From positions 1 to 25,111 of the forward strand of contig LJUY01000040.1 of the NCBI GenBank assembly GCA_001304015.1: a DNA stretch of 25,111 nucleotides. The letters are read 5' to 3'. The notes under the pieces were generated by a model. That model did not search any database. It saw only the letters and a list, made by a program, of their open reading frames with translations, and was not told where the DNA came from. Origin of the DNA: a candidate division Zixibacteria bacterium SM23_81 (GTDB lineage: Bacteria; SM23-81). Both the position numbers and the translations under genes were made by a program. Below, piece by piece: positions 6,500-21,495 of this stretch; positions within the stretch are counted from its first letter, which is position 1, and each line of letters starts with the position of its first letter.

Positions 6500-6617
6500 A
6501 GCCTGTTTGGTTTTTCCCGATTCCCGGTTTTTTCCCGAGTCTCCGGTCTCGATTCGCGATCCCCGATTCCCTTTTCCTCTCGAATCCTTGAATCCTTGGG
6601 CCCTTTCTTTACAAGAC

Positions 6618-9736: not shown

Positions 9737-9864
9737 AAATATTGCGTTTGTAGGACGAGTTGAGAGAGTTTTGAGAGTTCAGAGATTTTAGATAAAATGG
9801 CAATAGCAATGGCAATGAGAGGCCAGTAAGAGCAGGAAGTCTAGGGGTGGAGTTCTCATGGCAC

Positions 9865-9930
9865 GATTAACGATCACCGAGCAACGATTACCGAACACAC
9901 CGATCATTGATTACCGATTAACGCAACGCA
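9865..9930. repeat. Degenerate short repeats built on CGATTA / ACCGAT
   Basis: ACGATTAACGATCACCGAG is followed by variants such as ACGATTACCGA, ACCGATCATTGATTACCG and ATTAACG. Copies are irregular in length and spacing, so this looks like slippage-derived low-complexity DNA rather than an ordered array. Confidence 0.5.
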
Positions 9931-10123
9931 TCTCGACACCGACAAATGTGCTTCGAGCTTCAACAGAGTTGAGATGACCTGGTCGGTAATCGCAGCAGTA
10001 CGACCAGTGATATGATGATTCGATAAACGAAAGACGATAGACGAAGACCATTACCCGCGTCAACGCCAATAGGCGATTTCCGAAAGTCGTGATTTTCGTA
10101 GGAGGGATTTCCTGACCTCGACG

Positions 10124-19808: not shown

Positions 19809-20240
19809 ATGAGATGTTATTGGCCTGGACACCTTGGGATCATGTTGTTACTCTTGACCTTGATGAGCTGCACTCCCTCTCCCCGATACACCAGCGCTAA
19901 GCGCCCTCCGGAGGAGAGTCCAGCTGAGAATCCGAAGCAAGAACAAGAGGGAATCTCCTCTTACTACGGGGCGGAGTTCCATGGCCGTCAGACTGCAAAC
20001 GGTGAGATTTACAACATGTACGCCATGACCGCTGCCCACCGAACTCTGCCATTCAACACTTGGCTCTTGGTCACCAATCTGGACAACGGCAAGCAAGTGA
20101 CAGTCCGTATTAACGATCGAGGACCTTTTGCCAAGGGCAGGATCATCGACCTCTCTTATGGAGCAGCCCAGAAGATTGGCATAGTAGGTTCAGGAACGGC
20201 CAAGGTGAGGCTGGAAGTGCTGGAGTTGGGGGGGCAGTAG
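19809..20240 (+). CDS. RlpA-like septal ring lipoprotein with double-psi beta-barrel
   Basis: A 143-residue lipoprotein. The signal ends LTLMSC, so C21 would be lipidated. After a Pro/Glu linker (about 22-48), residues 49-140 form the double-psi beta-barrel of RlpA: SSYYGAEFHGRQTANGE, TAAHRTLPFNT, VTNLDNGKQVTVRINDRGPF and RIIDLSYGAAQKIG. Some RlpA proteins are lytic transglycosylases acting on naked glycan strands at division sites. There is no C-terminal SPOR domain, so septal targeting is uncertain. GAGGTGAG precedes the ATG. It sits 83 bases after pyrD with no visible promoter, so it may be read through from pyrD. Confidence 0.93.
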   Translation: MRCYWPGHLGIMLLLLTLMSCTPSPRYTSAKRPPEESPAENPKQEQEGISSYYGAEFHGRQTANGEIYNMYAMTAAHRTLPFNTWLLVTNLDNGKQVTVRINDRGPFAKGRIIDLSYGAAQKIGIVGSGTAKVRLEVLELGGQ

Positions 20241-20275
20241 GGACACCAGGCAGGGTGCAAAGTGAAAAATGCAAA

Positions 20276-20632
20276 ATGTGAAAGAATGACCTATCAGATC
20301 GACTACTGGACTTCTCAGCGAAGGTCATCCAGATAGTAGCTAAATTGAGGAATACAGCACCTGGGCGTCATATCTGTAATCAATTGATGCGATAAGGAAC
20401 TCCAGCAGGCGCTGACTACGAAGAAGCATGCGCTGCGGGGAGCTGGGCGGATTTCATACACAAAATGTAGGTGGTCTTAAAAGAATTGCGCGAATCATCT
20501 TACTGGTTGCATTTGATCAGAAAAACGGGCTCTGTTCCTAAAGAAGATAGAAAGCTTGCGGAACTTATGCTGGAATCAATGGAATTGACGAATATCGCGG
20601 CGAAATCGATTGCTACAGCAAAGAGAAGTTAA
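20276..20632 (+). pseudogene. Four-helix-bundle protein (23S rRNA intervening-sequence family), three in-frame stops
   Basis: One reading frame of 118 codons, with no frameshift, spells a typical member of this small family (about 115-120 residues). Visible blocks are NDLSDRLLDFSAKVIQIVAK, then NTAPGRHICNQLMR, GTPAGADYEEACAAGSWADF, IHKM, VVLKELRESSYWLHLIRK and ELMLESMELTNIAAKSI, ending TAKRS. Stops interrupt it: TGA right after the ATG (20279-20281), TAA where the family has Ser of RSGTSP (20393-20395; TCA to TAA is one change), and TAG after DFIHKM (20468-20470), where Lys is expected. Lost Ser/Asn positions (GTPAGADY for the usual GTSPAANY) also show decay. The native function of the family is unclear. 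Three different stops in 118 codons argue against recoding. Confidence 0.8.
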
Positions 20633-20670
20633 TTTTTCACTTTTCATTTTTCACTTTTCATTTTTCATTT
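20633..20670. repeat. Tandem 14-mer, two exact copies plus a partial
   Basis: TTTTTCACTTTTCA occurs at 20633-20646 and 20647-20660, followed by TTTTTCATTT. Its inverted form appears at 20257-20284 on the other side of the pseudogene. Confidence 0.75.
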
Positions 20671-20682
20671 GGTTATGTTTCA

Positions 20683-21495
20683 ATGACTTTTACAAAAAAA
20701 CTCATCCAGGCTTCACGAACAAACAACTCTTTGCTCTGCGTGGGGCTGGACGTGGATCTGGATCGAGTCCCACCATTTCTTCTAGCCGAAAAAGATGTTG
20801 TAGGAGCATTCAACCGGGCCATCATCGAGGCCACCGCCGATCTGGTCTGCGCCTACAAACCCAATGTGGCTTTCTACGAAGCTCTTGGTGAGAGGGGGTG
20901 GCGCGCGCTTCACAAGACCCGTCGATACGTGCCTAAAGAGATCCCCATCATCGCCGATGCCAAGCGGGGTGACATTGGCAACACGGCCCGGATGTATGCC
21001 AAGGCCTTTTTCGAGGATATGGATTTCGATGCCATCACCGTGAATCCCTATATGGGCTTCGACGCCGTGGAACCCTTTGTGAAGTTTGGCGACAAGTGCG
21101 CTTTCGTCCTCTGCCTGACATCTAATCCCAGCGCCGAGGAATTTCAGCGATTCTCGATAAATAAGCGTCCCCTCTTCCTTGAGGTGGCCCATAAGGTGGT
21201 AGCTTGGAGTCAGCACGGCTCATGTGGTTTGGTGGTGGGCGCCACCCAGGCCGGTGATCTGAAACGGGTCCGTGAGGTTGCCCCCCAATTACCCATATTG
21301 ATCCCCGGGGTGGGCGCCCAGGGCGGCGATCTGGCTGCGGCCGTGCGAGATGGCGTGAACGAATCTGGCGAGTTGGCCATCATAAACGTATCCCGATCCA
21401 TCCTCTACGCCTCGGCAGAGAGGGATTTTGCCCATCGTGCCCGCCAGGAAGCCATGAGGCTTCGGGACGAGATCAACAGACATCGCGGCGGGTAA
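20683..21495 (+). CDS. pyrF: Orotidine 5'-phosphate decarboxylase
   Basis: Converts OMP to UMP, the last step of de novo pyrimidine synthesis; 270 residues, the longer form (type 2) of the enzyme. The catalytic Asp-x-Lys-x-x-Asp array is at 92-97 in DAKRGDIGNTA; GLDVDLDRVP (21-30) and YKPNVAFYEALG (58-69) bind substrate. The phosphate-binding region is VVGATQ and IPGVGAQGGD. The ATG at 20683 has no recognisable ribosome site in the 20 bases before it, which are T-rich; the IVS-like element ends only 12 bases upstream and may have replaced the original leader. pyrE starts 24 bases after the stop. Confidence 0.95.
   Translation: MTFTKKLIQASRTNNSLLCVGLDVDLDRVPPFLLAEKDVVGAFNRAIIEATADLVCAYKPNVAFYEALGERGWRALHKTRRYVPKEIPIIADAKRGDIGNTARMYAKAFFEDMDFDAITVNPYMGFDAVEPFVKFGDKCAFVLCLTSNPSAEEFQRFSINKRPLFLEVAHKVVAWSQHGSCGLVVGATQAGDLKRVREVAPQLPILIPGVGAQGGDLAAAVRDGVNESGELAIINVSRSILYASAERDFAHRARQEAMRLRDEINRHRGG

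Follow-up and report, generated by a model that had tools for sequence, protein, structure and literature searches.

A decayed gene between inverted heptamer arrays in a Zixibacteria genome resembles a small mobile element recurring across bacterial phyla

We analyzed a stretch of 25,111 nucleotides of a Zixibacteria genome (the window). Between its rlpA-like and pyrF genes lies what is probably a small mobile element of ~400-450 bp, represented by a dead copy and made of one IVP gene and two inverted short-period arms. The gene-in-hairpin design is found again in bacteria of different phyla, where it behaves like a small mobile element of a kind not described before. The architecture, its generality and the inward G polarity of the arms were observed directly, as were insertion of the unit at one clean site and its reduction, at one site, to a truncated or a gene-less form.

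The decayed IVP gene (four helix bundle, TIGR02436/PF05635) lies at 20276..20632 on the plus strand, as located by profile matches, translation and a homologue on contig C59. An earlier note had described a frame of 118 codons interrupted by three stops. Translation of the frame from 20273 agreed, with TGA at 20279-20281, TAA at 20393-20395 and TAG at 20468-20470, and with a normal terminal TAA at 20630-20632. The family assignment made there also held in the profile search, which gave 35.4 bits for PF05635 (cut-off 33.8) and, with stops written as X, 58.5 bits for TIGR02436 (cut-off 24).

The left arm (20256..20283, plus strand) is an array of ~7 bp period, TGCAAAGTGAAAAATGCAAAATGTGAAA, detected by repeat search and by TRF (period 7 at 20256-20278). 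Its G-rich strand is directed inward, and the start codon of the IVP gene lies within its repeat. The right arm (20629..20670, minus strand) is a 7-mer array of ATTTTTC and ACTTTTC that has the opposite orientation to the left arm and is stronger than it; it was also found by TRF and repeat search. TRF reported it with period 7 (5.6 copies, score 64) and period 14 (score 72). The tandem 14-mer noticed earlier at the right end is present, but it is in fact a 7-mer array covering 20632-20670. Together the arms are inverted AAAATGA/AAAGTGA arrays, 82% complementary across 28 nt (20256-20283 against 20633-20660), as expected from the AT-rich inverted flanks that had been noticed, and the window copy thus has terminal inverted repeats around an open reading frame. 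Its flanks scored 20 for inverted matches, with p = 0.003 relative to Markov shuffles of the same flanks. Allowing up to one mismatch, AAGTGAAAAATG occurs four times in the window, every time at the IVP unit, compared with 0.12 expected.

Upstream of the unit is a gene for an rlpA-like lipoprotein (DPBB_1; 19809..20240, plus strand; Pfam 94.7 bits). Downstream is pyrF, for OMP decarboxylase (20683..21495, plus strand; Pfam 115.5 bits), and the unit sits inside a pyrD-rlpA-pyrF-pyrE cluster. We found no 23S rRNA location: an Rfam search gave no match in the window, nor in any of 20 other IVP loci.

Contig C59, from the same bin, has an intact IVP gene (L007) at the rlpA-pyrF position, with arms similar to those of the window. 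Set against this intact gene at the same locus, the internal stops mark the window copy as dead, in accordance with the earlier reading. The IVP proteins of C59 and of the window's contig (C44) are 70% identical over 108 codons. The C59 homologue scored 81.2 bits with TIGR02436 and 57 bits with PF05635 and matched the solved structure 2rld (E 7e-16), and L002, a sister copy in the genome, matched 2gsc (XCC0516; E 3e-27). These matches, obtained by sequence comparison only, point to a four-helix bundle fold. dS between C59 and C44 is about 0.6-1.6 at rlpA, IVP and pyrF, and C59 evidently derives from a second, related organism, judging by its sequence. The same insertion occupies the same place on both contigs and is thus older than the divergence of the two organisms; of these copies, the one on C44 alone is dead. 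The bin of the source genome (G000) has a contamination of 4%; the C59 loci in it are L007 and L079, with dS of about 1 at pyrF.

The source genome has eight PF05635 places, C44 and C59 included. Most of them have inverted arrays, each with its own unit; the units (lengths in brackets) are GGATTCAA (8), GAGATTC (7), GAGTTAGGC (9), GATCGGT (7) and GCCATT (6). The expectation of further copies sharing the window's flanks failed, as neither the exact repeat nor the flanks occur elsewhere in the source genome: the architecture is common and the repeat sequence is not. A search for an empty rlpA-pyrF gap in four relatives (G001-G004), also proposed beforehand, yielded none because gene order is not kept there. 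In G002-G004 pyrF lies elsewhere, in a different context, and in G001 pyrF was not found. The presence of IVP is patchy, at 19 of 41 related genomes. One genome, G011, gave 19 weak partial PF05635 matches (L026, L038 and others), many of them in close pairs on opposite strands, and these are possibly a related but distinct family.

Across 110 IVP loci from many phyla, the majority are bracketed by inverted short-period arrays. The arm unit differs from copy to copy, with period 7 dominant, followed by 8, 9 and 6. At each locus both arms have a common unit, inverted and oriented inward. At 45 loci from the source and other genomes, the inverted-match score was 21.4 for true pairs and 11.6 when flanks were swapped between loci. 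Among 117 control small ORFs of the source genome the highest inverted score was 17 and the 99th percentile 15.8; 77% of 44 IVP loci exceeded that percentile (p = 8e-14). An independent set of 68 named GTDB loci, chosen by protein pattern only, scored 22.3 for true and 11.9 for swapped flanks, with 44 loci above the 95th percentile of the swapped ones. This set covers Proteobacteria, Bacteroidota, Nitrospirota, Planctomycetota, Chloroflexota, Acidobacteriota, Firmicutes and candidate phyla. All 14 plasmid loci inspected had inverted arms, some of them perfect, such as AATTCGC (Nostoc L106) and GTAGGGA (L111). The fold-back ends first proposed for the window are therefore a feature of most loci in many phyla, compared with both small-gene and mismatched controls.

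About one quarter of the IVP loci have no clear arms. Direct flank similarity was raised too (18.2, compared with 22.0 inverted; inverted wins at 83 loci and direct at 23), which indicates that some loci have nested or mixed arrays. The G-rich strand runs inward (G > C from the outer end to the inner) in 76 of 84 loci (p = 5e-15). Close orthologous pairs carry an identical unit, and in one orthologous pair (L001/L018) the arms changed together. Fixed inverted repeats common to all copies, as in MITEs and insertion sequences, were not found among these loci, where the unit is copy-specific.

On plasmids of cyanobacteria we found filled and empty versions of one site. The IVP unit is present in Trichormus (L109) and Scytonema (L117); gene and arms are both missing from Nostoc linckia, Tolypothrix PCC 7601 and N. 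carneum (L114-L116; 97-98% identical). The empty site reads AAAAAGTAATTAACAAAT in three records. In the two filled records, GTAAT is followed by AAATCAGAATTC at the left junction and TTCTTCTTT is followed by GTAATTAAC at the right. The empty site has one GTAAT and the filled site has one at either end, a target duplication of 4-5 bases, (G)TAAT. Precise insertion with a target-site duplication, the generic mark of a transposable element, was thus observed at one clean site, which is not the window's locus. Elsewhere the GTAAT site contains a truncated IVP gene (Nostoc C052, L118) or a gene-less hairpin (Brasilonema, L119). The claim that the unit moves as an insertion with fold-back ends gained from this empty and filled site and its duplication; the part that did not stand is the shared sequence, as copies have a design in common and not a repeat.

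Other sites gave further comparisons. The nrdB-nrdA site carries a unit in L111 and none in Calothrix L120; TTAG is likely duplicated at the filled site, and the pair is suggestive of insertion with duplication. When empty, cas1 and cas2 are separated by 2 bp or overlap by 1 bp (L211, L212), and in L100 and L103 an IVP unit lies between them. On Nostoc plasmids (L106/L121/L122) a DNA cytosine methyltransferase gene, intact in L123, has the unit where ~380 bp of its sequence should be; both leftover ends of the interrupted gene are still annotated. For the IVP copy of G003, the corresponding site in G002 retains a right-arm relic alone. Apparent paralogues on two Calothrix plasmids turned out to be the same context. 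Copying of the arm unit from the target was hinted at by CAATTCG at the methyltransferase site and was dropped, as the other sites gave no such hint.

Short-period arrays also occur with no IVP gene. In the window, 9757..9930 contains arrays of GAGTTGAGA (9-mer), GCAATG (6-mer) and ACGATTACCG (7-mer), the units of which are those of the arms of L003, L005 and L004, and 6511..6600 contains arrays of CGATTCCC and GAATCCTT, with units like those of the arms of L001 and L002. Both are probable solo relics. Thus the units in IVP-free gaps of the window partly recur as arms of IVP copies in other parts of the genome. The gap at 10021-10051 is a further intergenic short-period array in which there is no IVP gene. 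In 715 kb of the source genome, sampled as stretches, we counted 44 period-7 arrays scoring at least 40, compared with 0 in Markov sequence. These are largely intergenic, include gene-less hairpins, and the gene-less arrays outnumber the IVP copies. Neighboring solo arrays show the inward-G polarity in 18 pairs versus 4.

The number of gene-less arrays and the existence of array-rich gaps lacking IVP could mean that heptamer arrays are older, as simple-sequence repeats or regulatory sites, and that the arms are no part of the element but its target, IVP genes having entered an array or the space between two. Some solo arrays, moreover, have a unit exactly equal to an IVP arm of their own genome. 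We consider this quite unlikely. The closest empty sites (L114-L116 and L120) are free of arrays, so gene and arms arrived together, and each locus has one unit in both arms, inverted and inward. In addition, IVP-free genomes are almost without heptamer arrays: in a blind sampling of 33 other genomes, there were 27 non-coding period-7 arrays in 96 kb from 13 IVP-bearing genomes and 3 in 89 kb from 20 IVP-free genomes (p = 1e-5), and those 3 were all AT-simple. The similarity of solo arrays to IVP arms is slightly greater within a genome than between genomes (p = 0.03), a difference that is not significant when G000 is left out. Plain AT-rich slippage was rejected as a source of the heptamer arrays, since they are nearly absent from IVP-free genomes and many are GC-rich.

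A second alternative is an RNA-level element like the 23S rRNA intervening sequence (IVS). The arms would pair in the transcript, RNase III would excise the insert and make it harmless, and RNA pairing would keep the arms alike. The Coxiella 23S IVS has the same gene family and layout: RNase III cuts its terminal inverted repeats, and the ORF occupies the loop that they enclose (PMC4990558). In the predicted RNA of the window the arms likewise pair and enclose the gene as a loop, and IVP copies are situated in operons. We nevertheless regard this alternative as unlikely. Mismatches in the arms show no excess of G-U pairs in the sense RNA (141 vs 148), the element folds as RNA no better than shuffles do (z -0.78 for the window and -1.45 for L106), and cyanobacteria have some copies that run antisense to the operon around them. 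Because G-U bias is lacking and RNA folds are of ordinary stability, we prefer an element that folds back at the DNA level.

We compared intact IVP pairs at informative distances. dN/dS was 0.06, 0.06 and 0.23, showing that the IVP protein is under lasting purifying selection. IVP genes are co-directional with both neighbors in 64 of 93 cases and antisense to both in 7 of 93; for control small ORFs the numbers are 67 and 16 of 100, so that the co-directional share is similar and antisense cases are rarer among IVP genes. Mostly co-directional genes are as expected for a gene with no promoter of its own. The junctions wzm/wzt, cas1/cas2, accB/accC and DUF1156/Swt1, several of them named from translated gene ends, recur in unrelated lineages. 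IVP copies between wzm and wzt as read (polysaccharide ABC transporter permease and ATPase) are L133, L135, L136, L139 and L142, from Bacteroidota and one Desulfuromonadales genome. Copies between or beside cas1 and cas2 are L100, L103, L112 and L184, from several cyanobacteria and one Nitrospirae genome. Between genes reading as accB and accC, Luteimonas L124 has an IVP gene with GGGAATC arms, which is the unit known from the intergenic repeats of Xanthomonas (PMC4692102).

The 23S rRNA IVP has been listed among associations of the CRISPR adaptation module (PMC10910872). Our cas1-IVP-cas2 copies are consistent with that association, which may reflect insertion hot spots. PADLOC models gave no match to two IVP proteins, and a tblastn search of 50,697 phage records found no phage carrier of IVP.

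Purifying selection and the same junctions in unrelated lineages would also suit an ordinary host gene in operons, for example an assembly or expression modulator, with the arms as operon-internal hairpins for mRNA processing. This is very unlikely in view of the patchy presence noted above and of close relatives with empty operons. It also sits poorly with antisense copies, the copy inside a methyltransferase gene, decayed copies and a repeat that differs per copy.

A mobile element recognized by its fold-back ends therefore remains our preferred reading, and its cycle might run as follows. The mobility process would recognize the fold-back arms through their structure or period rather than a fixed sequence. 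The IVP protein, a relative of Avd, would bind the arms and recruit host enzymes that cut and copy. To our knowledge IVP has no catalytic fold, and neither a transposase nor a reverse transcriptase was identified as the mover of the unit. Slippage would make the arms drift while copying between them preserves complementarity, and the repeat would thereby become unique to each copy. Insertion between co-transcribed genes would let the host operon express the promoter-less gene. Gene-less hairpins and solo heptamer arrays would be non-autonomous or relic forms.

The protein family, the IVS elements and the heptamer repeats are each known (PMC4990558, PMC4692102, PMC4679880). In the openly licensed literature searched, we found no report linking IVP genes to inverted short-period arms or to heptamer repeats. 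Two long-standing orphans appear to be parts of one thing: the very common annotation 'four helix bundle protein / S23' and the heptamer repeats scattered through many genomes. We suggest tentatively, at slightly less than an even chance, that IVP genes with inverted short-period arms make up a separate, phylum-wide class of minimal mobile elements, with ends recognized by periodic or fold-back structure rather than by sequence, and that 23S rRNA intervening sequences as well as the orphan heptamer repeats of Xanthomonas, cyanobacteria and others stem from this class. If true, this would explain the origin of those intervening sequences, give intergenic heptamer hairpins a common origin and suggest a mode of transposition in which any repeat sequence can serve in the ends.

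In outline the unit is like REP/RAYT (TnpA-REP) REPtrons, in which a single small gene is flanked by short inverted repeats and many gene-less copies are scattered intergenically. However, IVP is not a Y1 transposase, and no fixed sequence defines the tandem arrays of its arms. A second comparison is with Avd, the accessory protein of DGRs, which acts with a reverse transcriptase on template RNA. The PF05635 family resembles Avd (PMC10053308), and the two are homologous. Unlike in DGRs, no RVT_1 (reverse transcriptase) was found in the source genome (92.6% complete), which leaves a DGR-like cycle in cis unsupported.

The 23S rRNA IVS with an S23/IVP ORF, known from Coxiella and Leptospira, has long been suspected to be a mobile-element remnant (PMC4990558). 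It shares with the present unit the protein family and an ORF between terminal inverted repeats able to form a stem. In contrast, the present unit lies outside rRNA, between protein genes, and its arms are tandem 6-9-mers with a copy-specific unit, which nothing indicates to be maintained at the RNA level. Heptameric intergenic repeats have been described in Xanthomonas (GGGAATC) and Nostoc (GGGGATT) (PMC4692102) and in Beggiatoaceae (TAACTGA) (PMC4679880). These and the cyanobacterial STRR heptamers have the period and intergenic placement of our arrays, but the repeats in both reports were described alone and unconnected to IVP genes, and one of the reports states that they have no general association with mobile elements (PMC4692102). 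The Xanthomonas GGGAATC repeat, described as a G-quadruplex repeat, forms 70-75 convergent inverted pairs (PMC4692102), and these fit the inward-G polarity of the IVP arms.
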